A stretch of 41,022 bases of DNA from Bacteroidales bacterium (GTDB lineage Bacteria; Bacteroidota; Bacteroidia; Bacteroidales; UBA932). The notes beneath the pieces were generated by a model, which worked only from the letters and a program-made list of their open reading frames with translations, had not been told where the DNA came from and searched no databases. The position numbers were made by a program, and so were the translations under genes. The first letter of the stretch is position 1, and each line of letters begins with the position of its first letter. The DNA lies in NCBI GenBank assembly GCA_017429765.1, contig JAFROJ010000029.1:1-41022 (forward strand), in the 5' to 3' direction. Below are positions 7,201 to 35,403 of the stretch, piece after piece.

Positions 7201-7338
7201 CGGATGCCGGCAGGGCCTTCATCCCCGAACCGCCGCTTCGCGGCCCCATCGTTCGCCTCGTTTCACGAGGCTCCGGTCTCCCCTCTTAACGTGCCGAGGG
7301 TGGCAGTGGTTCGGGTGACGAAGCCCTGCCGGCATCCG
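7201..7338 (+). repeat. Structured dispersed element, copy 1
   Basis: First of three copies of an element with a conserved core and copy-specific pairing arms. Outer arms 7201-7215 and 7324-7338 are a perfect 15-bp inverted repeat; inner arms 7224-7231 and 7308-7315 (CCCGAACC/GGTTCGGG) give 8 more pairs. The core holds hairpin A (GCCGC 7232-7236 with GCGGC 7240-7244, loop TTC), hairpin B (7255-7271, 7 bp, loop TTC) closed by ATCG/CGGT, and a segment 7281-7305 that can form either CCCTC/GAGGG or TGCC/GGCA pairing, or both as a pseudoknot. It fills the gap between apt and the rhamnosidase gene, which are both on the minus strand, so here the core lies antisense to its neighbours. Strand is given only to show that all three copies share one orientation. 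Function unknown. Confidence 0.85.
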
Positions 7339-10283: not shown

Positions 10284-12533
10284 ATGGATGTAACTGTACG
10301 CAAGACCAACGGTACGTTTGAGGAGTACGACAAGGTCAAACTGATGAATGGCATACGCGAGGCCTACAAGACGGCGGGTCAGGAGTGTCCCGAGGCCGTG
10401 GTGGTCTCGATCGCCGAGAACCTCTATATCTACGACAAGATCACGAGCCGCGAGATCCGCCGCCAGGTGGAGGATAGCCTCATGTCCATCAACAAGAAGG
10501 TGGCTGTGGCTTACATCGAGAAATTCGACGCCGGCCTCGACCTTCGCAAGAAGAGGGACTTCATCAAGGACTACATCAACGCCTCCAACGCCGCCACAGG
10601 CTCGAAGTTCGACGCCAACGCCAACGTGACCCGCAAGAACATAGTGACGCTCGGCCAGGAACTCTACAAGGAGAACAACATCAAGCAGAACCGCTACATC
10701 ATGAAGGACAAGATCAAGTCCATGTACGGCCGCGCCATCGCGAACCAGTACATCAAAGACCTTGAGAGCCATGTCCTCTACAAACATGACGAGAGCGGCA
10801 CTCCCGGCTACCCTTACTGCGTGGCCATCACGATGTATCCTTTCCTAGTCGACGGTCTGCGGAACCTCGGTGGCGTCTCCATCGCCCCCACGGATTTGAA
10901 GTCTTTCTGTGGCGAGTTCATCAACCTCGTGTATTCCATCTCCTCCCAGTTCATGGGAGCGGTGGCCACACCCGAGTTCCTGATGTACCTGGACTACTTC
11001 ATCCGCAAGGACTACGGAGACGACTACATCGAGCATCTCGAGGATGTCGTCGAGATGAACGTCAAGAAGAGGACCCTCGTCAAGGTCATCGACAACTATT
11101 TCCAGCAGGTGGTGCATTCCATGAATATGCCCGCCGGCAACCGCGGCTATCAGACCGTGTTCTGGAACATCAGTTACTTTGACGAGCCCTACTTCCGCGG
11201 CGTTTTCGGCGACTTCCGTTTCCCTGACGGGACCGCTCCCAGATGGGACACTCTATCCTGGCTCCAGAAGCATTTCATGAATTGGTTCAACGAGGAAAGG
11301 AACCACTACATCCTGACTTTCCCCGTCGAGACCATGGCTTTGCTCACCGACGGGGCCGATGACTTCGCCGATCCCGACTACGCCGACTTCACCGCCGAGA
11401 TGTGGTCGAAGGGTCACAGCTTCTTCTGCTATCTCTCCGACAGCCCGGACAGCCTCGCCAGCTGCTGCCGTCTGCGCAACTCGCTGACCGACCTGGACAA
11501 GTCGGACGAGAAGCACAACCACACCACCCATCAGTACTCCATGGGCACGGCCTCCGTCTCGACCGGTTCCAAGTCCGTCATGACCATCAACCTCAACAGG
11601 CTCATCCAGATCGCCGCGAGGCGTTACTTCCTTGAGAGGAAGGGTGTCATGATCGACGGCGGCAAGGCCCTCCAGAGAGGTGACTACGACAAGAACCAGC
11701 TCTATGAGTACATCCGTGAGGCGGTCACCGACGAGACGGAGAAGGTTCATAAGTACCAGAACGCCTTCAATGAGATCATCAAGGACTTCCTGAACGCCCG
11801 CATGCTGGATGTCTACCAGGCAGGCTTCATCGACATGAGGCGCCAGTACCTGACGGTCGGTGTGAACGGTCTGACGGACGCCGCCGAGTTCCTCGGCCTG
11901 ACCATCAGCCCGAATCCGGAGTACAATGAGTTCGTGGACACCATCCTCGAGACCATCAACCGCTCCAACAGGAAGGACAGGACTCCCGACGCCATGTTCA
12001 ACACCGAGTTCGTCCCCGGCGAGAACCTCTCCGGAAAGAACTACAGGTGGGACCAGAAGGACGGCTTCTACGTGTCTCCCAAGCACAACATGTACAGCTC
12101 GTACTTCTACAACCCGGAGGACGACACCCTCTCGATGATCGACAAGTTCAAGCTTCACGGCAACGACTATGTCAAGCATCTGGACGGTGGCTCCGCCCTC
12201 CACATGAATGTGGCCGAGCACCTCTCCAAGGACCAGTACAGGCAGCTTTTGAAGACAGCGGCCCACTACGGGACCAACTACTTCACATTCAACTGCCGCA
12301 ACACGGTCTGCAACAGCTGCGGGTACATCAGCAAGGACACTCTTGAGGTCTGCCCGAAGTGCGGAAGCCGTAACCTGGATTACCTGACCCGCGTCATCGG
12401 CTACCTGAAGAGGGTCTCCTCGTTCAGCGAGATGCGCCAGGAGGAGGCGGGACGCCGCTTCTACATCCACGAGGGATCCAGGGAGGCTGTGAAAGCCTCG
12501 GCTCCCGTGTACGTGACCAAGGCGAAGGTATGA
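10284..12533 (+). CDS. nrdD: Anaerobic ribonucleoside-triphosphate reductase
   Basis: Class III enzyme reducing ribonucleoside triphosphates to deoxyribonucleotides with a glycyl radical; essential for DNA synthesis without oxygen. The 749 residues contain an N-terminal ATP-cone (about 1-95, beginning VRKTNGTFEEYDKVKLMNGI), the ten-stranded barrel, a C-terminal zinc site with two Cys pairs (CNSCGYISKDTLEVCPKCG), and the glycyl-radical loop RVIGYL with G706 as the expected radical residue. Length and motifs are complete. It overlaps nrdG by 4 bp (ATGA), indicating translational coupling. A promoter, an operator-like repeat and a leader hairpin lie upstream. Confidence 0.97.
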   Translation: MDVTVRKTNGTFEEYDKVKLMNGIREAYKTAGQECPEAVVVSIAENLYIYDKITSREIRRQVEDSLMSINKKVAVAYIEKFDAGLDLRKKRDFIKDYINASNAATGSKFDANANVTRKNIVTLGQELYKENNIKQNRYIMKDKIKSMYGRAIANQYIKDLESHVLYKHDESGTPGYPYCVAITMYPFLVDGLRNLGGVSIAPTDLKSFCGEFINLVYSISSQFMGAVATPEFLMYLDYFIRKDYGDDYIEHLEDVVEMNVKKRTLVKVIDNYFQQVVHSMNMPAGNRGYQTVFWNISYFDEPYFRGVFGDFRFPDGTAPRWDTLSWLQKHFMNWFNEERNHYILTFPVETMALLTDGADDFADPDYADFTAEMWSKGHSFFCYLSDSPDSLASCCRLRNSLTDLDKSDEKHNHTTHQYSMGTASVSTGSKSVMTINLNRLIQIAARRYFLERKGVMIDGGKALQRGDYDKNQLYEYIREAVTDETEKVHKYQNAFNEIIKDFLNARMLDVYQAGFIDMRRQYLTVGVNGLTDAAEFLGLTISPNPEYNEFVDTILETINRSNRKDRTPDAMFNTEFVPGENLSGKNYRWDQKDGFYVSPKHNMYSSYFYNPEDDTLSMIDKFKLHGNDYVKHLDGGSALHMNVAEHLSKDQYRQLLKTAAHYGTNYFTFNCRNTVCNSCGYISKDTLEVCPKCGSRNLDYLTRVIGYLKRVSSFSEMRQEEAGRRFYIHEGSREAVKASAPVYVTKAKV

Positions 12534-13027
12534 TCAAATATGTTCCCGAGATGACCTCCGTGGTCATCGAGGAGATACCCGATCGCGTTACCTTGGCGGT
12601 TGACATCAGCAACTGCCAAGGTAATTGCGTTGGGTGCCACTCACCTTTCTTGAAAGAGGATGTCGGTGAGGAGCTGACCCCCGCTGTCATCGACCGTCTG
12701 GTCGCTGAGAACTACGGGGTCAATTGTTTTCTTTTCCTTGGGGAGGGCAACGATCCGGAGACCTTGATCGCTTTGGCTGACCATGTCCGGGAGATCGGGC
12801 TTGAGTCGGCTCTGTATTCCGGAAGACGTGACGTCGAGAGAGCCTTCTACATGACTTTCGACTATGTCAAGATCGGCCCGTACATCGAGCATTTCGGCCC
12901 GCTCAACTCTCCCACGACCAATCAAAGGCTCTATAAAGTCACCCACGACACTTCCTCCAAGCCAGACTATCGCCTCACCGACCTGACCTCCCGCTTCTGG
13001 CGCCGCGGCATCGACCCGAATAAATAG
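12530..13027 (+). CDS. nrdG: NrdD-activating radical SAM protein
   Basis: Generates the glycyl radical on NrdD using S-adenosylmethionine and a [4Fe-4S] cluster. The 165-residue protein has the cluster motif CxxxCxxC at C29, C33 and C36 (sequence CQGNCVGC) and the expected small size of the family. The start codon overlaps the nrdD stop codon. The gene is followed 1 bp later by copy 2 of the structured element, which may end or shape the nrdDG transcript. Confidence 0.95.
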   Translation: MIKYVPEMTSVVIEEIPDRVTLAVDISNCQGNCVGCHSPFLKEDVGEELTPAVIDRLVAENYGVNCFLFLGEGNDPETLIALADHVREIGLESALYSGRRDVERAFYMTFDYVKIGPYIEHFGPLNSPTTNQRLYKVTHDTSSKPDYRLTDLTSRFWRRGIDPNK

Positions 13028-13028
13028 C

Positions 13029-13163
13029 CGGCCATAAAGGGTACGGCAGACTGGACGCCTCGCTCCGCTCGGCCCCACCGTTCGCCTCGTTTCACGAGGC
13101 TCCGGTCCCCCCTCTTAACGTGCCGAGGGTGGCAGTGTCCCTCTGCCGTACCCCTTATGGCCG
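13029..13163 (+). repeat. Structured dispersed element, copy 2
   Basis: Same core as copies 1 and 3, but with unrelated arms. Arms 13029-13050 and 13142-13163 pair over 22 positions with a single mismatch, and an inner GGAC (13053-13056) pairs with GTCC (13137-13140). Hairpin B is identical to copy 1. Hairpin A is longer and less perfect here (GCC..GC, loop TCC, GC..GGC with a 2x2 internal mismatch). The CCCTC, TGCC, GAGGG, GGCA order of the pseudoknot-capable segment is unchanged. It begins 1 bp after the nrdG stop codon and ends 83 bp before the DUF4837 promoter. Confidence 0.85.
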
Positions 13164-13245
13164 CCTAGAAATGGGCCGGAGAGATTTTTGTTTTTGAAGC
13201 CATTGATTATCAGTGGCTAAGGTGTTCCTTGCGAGAGATAGGATT

Positions 13246-33856: not shown

Positions 33857-35271
33857 GAAACAGTAAAGTAGTCTCTTTGGAGGAGGCCATCCGCCGCTCC
33901 GGCTTGAAGGATGGCATGACCATATCGTTCCACCACCACTTCCGTGGCGGTGACAAGGTCGTCAACATGGTGGTTGACAAGCTGGCCGGGATGGGTTTCA
34001 AGGATCTGAAGCTCGCCGCCTCCAGCCTTTCCGATGTCCACTCCCCGCTGATCGAGCATATCAAGAACGGTGTCATCACGGGAATATCCACCTCCGGTCT
34101 CCGCGGCCAGCTGGCCAGCGAGATCTCCCACGGCTTGATGAGTGAGCCTGTCGTCTTCCGTTCCCACGGGGGACGCGGGAGCGCCATAGCCAATGGTGAC
34201 CTTCATATCGACGTGGCCTTCCTCGGCGCCTCTTCCTGCGACTGTCTCGGCAACGCCTCCGGCTGCCCCAGGAGCGAGAACGCCAAGTCCATCTGCGGCT
34301 CCCTCGGGTACGCCCTCCCCGACGCCAAACACGCTGACCATGTGGTGGTTCTGACCGATGATCTCGTGGACTATCCCAATGTTCCAAAGTCCATCTCCGC
34401 CTGTGACGTGGAGTCAGTGGTGGTGGTCGAGTCAGTGGGGGACAGCTCCAAGATCTCATCCGGGGCTATCCGCGACTCCAAGAACCCCCGTGACATATTG
34501 CTCGCCCAGCAGGCCGCCAAGGTGATCATCAACAGCGGCTATTTCGTGGACGGGTTCTCCATCCAGACCGGTACCGGCGGGGCCTCCCTGGCCGCCGTCA
34601 AGTACATCCGCGAGAGCATGATAGAGAAGGGTATCAAGGCTTCCTTCGCTCTCGGAGGCATCACCGCCCACATGGTGAAGCTCCACGAGGAGGGTCTTAT
34701 CGGCCGTCTGATCGACGTCCAGTCATTCGACAAGGTGGCCGCCGAGTCCATCGCCTCCGACCAGCTCCATCAGGAGGTCTCGGCCGTTGAATACGCCAGT
34801 GCCGACAATCCCGGATCCGCCGTCCACGCCCTTGACATCGTCATCCTTTCCGCCCTTGAGGTGGATGTGGACTTCAATGTCAATGTGCTCGTGGGTTCCG
34901 ACGGAGTCATCCGCGGCGCCATCGGAGGCCATCCTGACACCGCCGAGGACAGCGCGCTGTCGATAATAGTCTGCCCCCTTCTCCGCGGACGCATCCCTTG
35001 TGTGGTCCCTAAGGTGACCACCTTGATCACCCCCGGCGCCGGTGTCGATGTCGTTGTGACTGAATATGGGATAGCCGTCAATCCGAGGCGTCCCGAGATC
35101 GCCGCGCGTCTCAAGGAGGCCGGGCTTAAGGTCGTGGACATCCACGATCTCGCCGCCAAGGCCACCAGCGTGATCGGGGTTCCCGACCCGCTGCCCTTCG
35201 GGGACAAGGTCGTTGGGATCGTCATGGACCGCCACGGTAAGGTCCTCGACAAGATCTACAACATCAAATAA
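33853..35271 (+). CDS. citF: Citrate lyase alpha subunit (citrate:ACP transferase)
   Basis: Exchanges acetyl for citryl on the acyl carrier protein. The 472 residues are a little shorter than many CitF proteins (about 500), the difference being at the N terminus. Features seen are SFHHHFRGGDKVVN, GASSCDCLGNASG and GTGGASLAAVKYI. It overlaps citE by 4 bp. Its stop codon directly abuts copy 3 of the structured element, which separates the structural genes citDEF from the maturation gene citX. Confidence 0.95.
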   Translation: MRNSKVVSLEEAIRRSGLKDGMTISFHHHFRGGDKVVNMVVDKLAGMGFKDLKLAASSLSDVHSPLIEHIKNGVITGISTSGLRGQLASEISHGLMSEPVVFRSHGGRGSAIANGDLHIDVAFLGASSCDCLGNASGCPRSENAKSICGSLGYALPDAKHADHVVVLTDDLVDYPNVPKSISACDVESVVVVESVGDSSKISSGAIRDSKNPRDILLAQQAAKVIINSGYFVDGFSIQTGTGGASLAAVKYIRESMIEKGIKASFALGGITAHMVKLHEEGLIGRLIDVQSFDKVAAESIASDQLHQEVSAVEYASADNPGSAVHALDIVILSALEVDVDFNVNVLVGSDGVIRGAIGGHPDTAEDSALSIIVCPLLRGRIPCVVPKVTTLITPGAGVDVVVTEYGIAVNPRRPEIAARLKEAGLKVVDIHDLAAKATSVIGVPDPLPFGDKVVGIVMDRHGKVLDKIYNIK

Positions 35272-35403
35272 AGATGGCAAGGCGCCTCGCTTCCCCGACC
35301 GCCGCTTCGCGGCCCCACCGCTCGCTTAGCTTCGCTAAGCTCCGGTCCCCCCTCTTAACGTGCCGAGGGTGGCAGTGGTCAGGAAGCGAACGCCTTGCCA
35401 TCT
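35272..35403 (+). repeat. Structured dispersed element, copy 3 (inside cit operon)
   Basis: Same core as copies 1 and 2 with a third, unrelated set of arms. AGATGGCAAGGCG (35272-35284) pairs with CGCCTTGCCATCT (35391-35403), TCGCTTCC (35287-35294) with GGAAGCGA (35382-35389), and GACC (35297-35300) with GGTC (35377-35380). Hairpin A equals copy 1. Hairpin B (35324-35340) keeps the length and the TTC loop but changes three of seven base pairs by double compensatory substitution. It occupies nearly the whole citF-citX gap and reads sense to the operon, so an mRNA would fold here between the structural and maturation genes. Confidence 0.87.

Follow-up and report, generated by a model that had tools for sequence, protein, structure and literature searches.

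A dispersed palindromic element of Bacteroidales with a conserved core and site-linked outer arms, comparable to the coding palindromes of Rickettsia

How can copies of one repeat keep a near-identical core and yet carry outer arms that differ from copy to copy while still pairing within each? This question is raised by a 41,022-nt stretch of a Bacteroidales genome (contig JAFROJ010000029.1; hereafter the window), in which a motif recurs at 7201–7338, 13029–13163 and 35272–35403 (repeat family D1, inverted repeats I1 and I3). Rereading of the sequence and repeat finding confirmed a first-pass annotation that the three copies share a near-identical core and lie in one orientation. In copy 1, the left arm (7201..7231, plus strand, as for all features of the copies given here) pairs with the right arm (7308..7338) around a conserved core (7232..7307) whose second helix is backed by covariation in relatives. 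Copy 2 consists of a left arm at 13025..13056, a core at 13057..13136 and a right arm at 13137..13167, and copy 3 of a left arm at 35272..35300, a core at 35301..35376 and a right arm at 35377..35403. Stop codons abut the last two: the outer end of the left arm of copy 2 includes the TAG (13025–13027) of the ORF at 12530–13027, and copy 3 begins immediately 3' of a TAA (35269–35271), with the start of the following ORF 5 nt away by mechanical ORF calls. Copy 1 is flanked by two minus-strand ORFs, the stop of one (7345) 6 nt off and the start of the next (7184) 16 nt off; its orthologous sites are filled in L076 and L108 and empty in L123. The window copies are ordinary intergenic members of the family that adjoin stop codons.

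The core runs in the order hairpin A (7232–7244 in copy 1), CCCC, hairpin B (about 7248–7277) and CCCTC-TT-A-(few nt)-GCC-GAGGG-T-GGC, the last part being represented in copy 1 by CCCTC (7281–7285), TGCC (7292–7295), GAGGG (7296–7300) and GGCA (7302–7305). The bases around GCC and GGC covary in divergent members of the genus, and among 40 distinct types found with a search pattern that itself required GCC and GGC, the closing pair of this second helix was TA in 26, GC in seven, AT in four, TG in two and TC in one. CCCTC and GAGGG are unchanged across 54 aligned cores. Because GAGGG lies within the loop of the GCC/GGC helix, pairing of CCCTC with GAGGG would make a pseudoknot, and the core, as read from the alignment, probably consists of two hairpins and such a pseudoknot. 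In the complementary strand, the loops of the pseudoknot would measure 1 and about 3 nt, a geometry that we take to be sterically easier. The whole element has a median length of 130 nt (10th to 90th percentile 114–144, 124 copies with an arm score of at least 25) and contains no gene of its own. At L059 and L052, elements seem to lie in tandem or nested, the right arm of one continuing into the left part of the next.

The source genome (2.36 Mb, 75 contigs) contains 30 matches to a 28-nt core motif with up to three mismatches, and none to the reversed control. The covariance-model search proposed by the first-pass annotation returned 36 matches in this genome at E≤0.001, together with further copies in other Bacteroidales. 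With stricter filters, the model matched 22 of 37 genomes sampled from the same genus, the source genome counted, and none of the 24 genomes sampled from other families. At least 107 stretches in a genome collection match the element; for 80 among these, the contig titles name uncultured Bacteroidales or Bacteroidia MAGs, many of them from rumen or omasum. When 393 genomes were drawn evenly from the order, the exact core pattern was present in two, the source and one from another genus of the same family (G162). The covariance model, with low sensitivity, added two more from two further families (G214 and G244), giving an order-wide total of at least 4 of 393 with ten candidates scored by the model per genome. 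G244 has three copies with copy-specific arms. G214 has nine model matches (eight at E≤0.01); its left arms differ from one another by no more than single changes, and the same is true of the eight right arms not truncated by a contig end. On this sequence evidence, the same core can exist in a fixed-arm form. The G214 copies (L224, L225, L228, L231, L233 and L235–L240) also share some 15 nt past the arms. Copies within one species tend toward one version of the second helix (L138–L157; for example, GGCC/GGCC in G019), which suggests recent bursts or concerted evolution within species. As for known families, the earlier view that the element belongs to no recognised class has held: in Rfam, only tRNA matched within the window at the gathering score, and ten loci searched at E≤10 gave seven matches, none of them at the element. 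An earlier description of it was not found in the literature searched, most subscription papers being outside its reach.

The arms pair within a copy and not between copies, as the first-pass annotation had stated: the median within-copy arm score is 40 (137 of 147 copies scorable) against 14 for 2,000 between-copy left/right pairs, a control in which orthologs were included (95th percentile 19, 99th 25, maximum 90). The accompanying statement that the arms have no sequence in common is correct for the three window copies, but subfamilies share their inner 10–15 nt, and identical arms genome-wide, although absent from the source genome, are very nearly what G214 presents. The inner and outer parts of the stem behave differently. 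For pairs of copies at unrelated sites whose cores differ at no more than three positions, the outer arms were at least 0.75 identical in none of ten pairs, which have several loci in common, and 8–10 of the inner 10 nt matched; at homologous sites with equally similar cores, the outer arms reached this identity in 10 of 12 pairs. L001 and L015 of the source genome, for example, differ at one core position and have outer arms 0.53 identical, the background being 0.49. The mean outer-arm identity for the unrelated-site pairs is 0.63, above that background, so these outer arms have some relation to one another, and inner and outer stem are not sharply divided. By these comparisons, the core and inner stem appear to travel together and the outer stem to stay with the site. 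Gene conversion that made cores alike across copies would yield the same pattern.

Where might the outer arms come from? By our own reading of purD in the source genome, the host codons AAGGCA and GATGCCTTC make outer pairs, and between them the left arm TCGCCG mirrors the host CGGCGA; similarly, at ispH the left outer arm GCCCC mirrors the host GGGGC. These two coding sites, read closely, suggest that outer arms may be derived from the host. A comparison for the host origin of the L015 arm found the C-terminus of L015 to be unlike that of L063. Once present, the arms change in concert. In 40 same-orientation ortholog pairs, the arm positions comprised 851 unchanged, 55 single, 57 compensated and four other double changes, and in 40 inverted pairs 801, 70, 58 and 12, respectively (18 of 98 pairs with an arm score below 14 were dropped, and gap columns, 59 in each class, lie outside these counts). 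The arm covariation score was 0.593 against a shuffled mean of 0.204, and none of 500 shuffles was as high; an absence of covariation in the arms, which the first-pass annotation had named as refuting, is not what is seen. At the closest orthologs (L039/L047, L099/L106 and L104/L107; 87–97% flank identity), there are only one-sided arm changes, which indicates that arm homogenisation is not fast.

The first-pass annotation had described copies beside genes, but many lie inside them. Among 129 copies with an arm score of at least 20, 50 lie in long ORFs (200 codons or more) that read across the element in one or other of two phases, a count that may hold a few chance ORFs. The in-frame cases number 55 (36 antisense, 19 sense), with five copies open on both strands; ten further ORFs in other phases look like chance overlaps. 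All nine host proteins tested from the source genome match Pfam families: class III and class I/II aminotransferases, GARS (purD), an RsmF-type methyltransferase, LytB (ispH), RrnaAD (ksgA), the 2-oxoacid dehydrogenase E2, a YhhN-aldehyde dehydrogenase (ALDH) fusion and a periplasmic binding protein. Our own reading of the sequence adds pdhC and GH3 as host gene names. Orthologs without the insert were found for purD (28) and ispH (15, the search pattern having missed 13 of 30 ispH loci). An element excised from the mRNA would have no need of an open frame.

Other in-frame repeats were also seen. A second repeat (GAGGGGAACGCCCCTCA..CCCCC with GGAGCGAAGCGAC) adjoins element copies in L007 (about 1550–1650) and, in ksgA, in L043 and L064. 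The aminotransferase loop that holds the element in the source genome holds two different in-frame repeats in relatives, at L301 (G033) and L304 (G464), namely PVPEPVEGPVEG and a REP-like CHPEQQRRIS repeat with a 12-bp inverted repeat, so that this one loop has three kinds of insert across genomes.

Comparison of orthologous sites provides a further view of how the element behaves. Among the loci compared there were 256 homologous flank pairs, and of the 108 orthologous pairs filled at both sites, 56 had the core inverted, including one of the seven at a flank identity of at least 88%. At that mean identity, six pairs had the same orientation (one being the same copy twice), one was inverted and four had an empty partner; at 80–88% the counts were 23 same, 28 inverted and 18 empty, and below 80% they were 23 same, 27 inverted, 20 empty and 11 other. 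These counts draw on copies and ortholog pairs that share phylogenetic history; duplicates were removed by identical sequence alone, and the 'empty' and 'other' classes were not de-duplicated. Clear flips with matching outer arms and flanks are seen in L112/L065, L032/L055 and L032/L071; some pairs classed as 'inverted' could have arisen by independent insertion into one loop. Both orientations are also found within a gene: among copies in the E2 linker, all with an open frame, those of L099, L106 and L115 lie in the sense direction and those of L024, L089, L117 and L136 are antisense. In ten filled/empty alignments, the core is missing from the empty genome, as are both arms, wholly or for the most part; the flanks are mostly 70–95% identical, and by eye there is no consistent target duplication. 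Between species, the aligned sequences thus present dispersal, filled and empty sites, in-frame insertion and opposite core orientations at one site.

We consider that these features are best explained, with a probability of about 0.6, by a mobile coding palindrome like the Rickettsia palindromic elements (RPEs), of which the core and inner stem move, and the outer stem is made at the site and kept by template switching that also flips the core. Of the options offered by the first-pass annotation, the mobile hairpin is thus favoured. The moving unit would be the folded core with the inner 10–14 bp of the stem, and it would insert beside genes and, in frame, within them. The outer stem would be assembled from DNA of the site, either during insertion or later, and host flank as its source is what we infer from the coding sites. 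Polymerase template switching between the arms (quasi-palindrome correction) would then hold the outer arms complementary, and the same switching would invert the core between them. Template switching as the cause is drawn from between-species comparison of non-independent pairs, in which an event in progress was not caught.

An alternative origin for the site-specific arms is that the core inserts into the loops of existing palindromes, such as terminators and small hairpins, as the first-pass annotation had suggested. Three element-free sites in close relatives are palindromic: purD in G017, where AAGGCCTC-t-GAGGCCTT aligns with the source outer arms AAGGCATC/GATGCCTT; ispH in G464 (CCGGAAG-ggg-CTTCCGG); and ALDH in G464 (GCCGGAGC-g-GCTCCGGC, with a control fraction of 0.041 for the one element-free site read, L309/L312). 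The intergenic copies are also placed where terminators would be. However, at 28 purD and 15 ispH element-free sites the best inverted repeat was no longer than in control windows: the share of controls that equalled or exceeded a site averaged 0.73 for purD and 0.76 for ispH and was below 0.05 at one of 28 and one of 15 sites, and no palindrome was seen by eye at the empty site in L115. Pre-existing palindromes are therefore not the rule, and we regard this origin as rather unlikely; the three palindromic empty sites are exceptions, which may be deletion scars or targets.

A structured RNA domain, with its long outer stem kept by selection on the transcript for processing, stability or regulation, would account for the strong covariation of the stem, for the covarying second helix in the core, and for the stop codons found no more than 15 nt from 45 of the 65 intergenic copies (chance ORFs add or remove some from this set, nine more copies lie at locus edges, and the open-phase count given above is cleaner). 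Selection on one RNA strand would, however, leave G.U far above A.C, and the arm mispairs over 161 copies are close to symmetric, at 198 G.T and 181 A.C. By class, the assignment being likewise affected by chance ORFs, G.T to A.C was 104:84 for intergenic copies, 56:52 for those antisense to an ORF and 38:45 for those in the sense direction; the tRNA control, consisting of 12 tRNAs in the same loci called by ARAGORN, which itself favours G.U, gave 32:0. The symmetry fits a process acting on DNA. Also against a selected transcript are the open-frame genes that hold the element, some in the sense and others in the antisense direction, and the orthologs in which it is inverted. One part of the element does show strand bias. 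Mispairs in hairpin B are 18 A.C to one G.T, with A.C fixed at one position in 11 loci, which is a hint that one strand (the complement) folds when single-stranded. The closing pairs of the second helix, with two T.G and no A.C, point in the opposite direction; a bias in hairpin A (nine A.C, two G.T) was set aside because most such pairs extend into the arm. Compensated arm changes, strand-symmetric mispairs and site-linked outer arms are all shown by comparing species. The proposal that the stem is kept by structure rather than by sequence is thus upheld insofar as pairing persists through compensated changes, but an RNA stem under selection is not what the mispairs indicate, and a structured RNA with such an outer stem now seems unlikely.

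We judge equally doubtful the possibility that this is an element of REP/REPIN type moved by a host RAYT transposase (IS200-like, HUH). The element is small and palindromic, and the genome encodes three RAYT-like proteins with weak Y1_Tnp and NCBI REP_Tyr_transpos matches, under the NCBI cut-off. The 370–500 nt on each side of these RAYT-like genes, read by eye, nevertheless hold other repeats instead of this core. In the source genome, the flanks at L191 and L192 contain two such repeats, CAGGATGAC.. and GGCGCAGGCGCGACATGC... Nor does the number of Y1 matches track that of elements among these incomplete genomes (six Y1 matches and one element in G006, none and 11 in G014, four and none in G021), and the search of Y1 transposases found no link to the element. 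REP and REPIN sequences, as described, are small palindromes that form hairpins, but they are 20–40 bp long with a GTAG tag and often lie near a RAYT gene (PMC3733652).

A still less probable reading is a terminator or 3'-end stabilising element that has spread through its benefit to upstream genes. The proximity to stop codons noted above would favour it, as would the 19 of the 65 intergenic copies that have a stop no more than 40 nt away on each side, although insertion near stops may just be the least harmful. Copies in purD, ispH and ksgA could hardly terminate transcription, and the three window copies lie between co-directional ORFs, with the next start only 16 nt from copy 1 and 5 nt from copy 3 and, by eye, no T run after the arms. 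A known riboswitch or ribozyme was set aside, as none matched and the in-gene copies on both strands speak against it.

The mobile, site-remodelled palindrome that we favour has its closest likeness in the RPEs, which were reportedly studied by Ogata et al. in 2000 and 2002. These are described as long stem-loops of about 105–150 bp, present in many copies, both intergenic and in frame within conserved protein genes (PMC2229807, PMC10969869). The Bacteroidales element is a stem-loop of about 100–150 bp that is likewise found in many copies between genes and in frame within conserved genes, with the frame open through the repeat. This likeness is drawn from descriptions of RPEs. The differences are that it belongs to another phylum, that its core is strongly conserved and probably pseudoknotted, and that its outer arms follow the site, with the core found both ways round at one site and both strands coding. 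RPEs are reported to lose repeat identity over time (PMC6649704). A palindrome sequence shared throughout was not found here, the outer arms differing despite near-identical cores; without one shared palindrome sequence, we place the element among the coding palindromes as a variant, outside the RPEs proper.

The behaviour of the arms finds its parallel in template-switched quasi-palindromes. Template switching is described as homogenising the arms of inverted repeats and inverting their spacers, also in coding DNA, the published spacer inversions being short with 2–5 bp changed (PMC8604942), and it is reported to be capable of creating and maintaining RNA hairpins (PMC8794818). Here, too, the arms are made alike, coding DNA is included, and the spacer is inverted between the same outer arms (L112/L065 and L032/L055). 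However, those cases are single local repeats with short spacers in yeast, whereas this is a mobile family with a spacer of 75–110 bp. Inverted repeats in coding genes are also described from nematomorph mitochondria, and template switching is among the causes suggested for their concerted arms; the account in PMC6649704 does not present them as scattered copies of one family built on a common core. MITEs such as ERIC and Correia resemble the element as small non-autonomous repeats with some in-frame fusions, but most are described as having terminal inverted repeats and target duplications (PMC2229807, PMC10969869). Here, each copy has outer repeats of its own, and conserved terminal inverted repeats linked to a transposase element, Y1 being the transposase family searched, were not found.

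This work has several implications. With this element, selfish palindromes in frame within conserved proteins appear to have a second and independent example, outside Rickettsia. Covariation of a stem is the usual proof of a functional RNA; here it comes with strand-symmetric mispairs, and the strong stem covariation therefore probably stems from DNA replication errors, which is a direct warning for RNA-motif searches. The copies are also natural replicates, with the same core, site-specific arms and filled, flipped and empty sites, so that the birth, upkeep and inversion of inverted repeats can be tested by comparison. Finally, and more tentatively, we raise the possibility that the element builds site-specific inverted repeats from host DNA and so acts as an invertible cassette, giving enzymes reversible two-state loops without a site-specific recombinase. 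As one frame is open on each strand, a flip within a gene keeps the reading frame, and if the idea is correct, each flip would exchange one loop of about 40 residues for another in housekeeping enzymes of the genus such as the 2-oxoacid dehydrogenase E2, KsgA and PurD.
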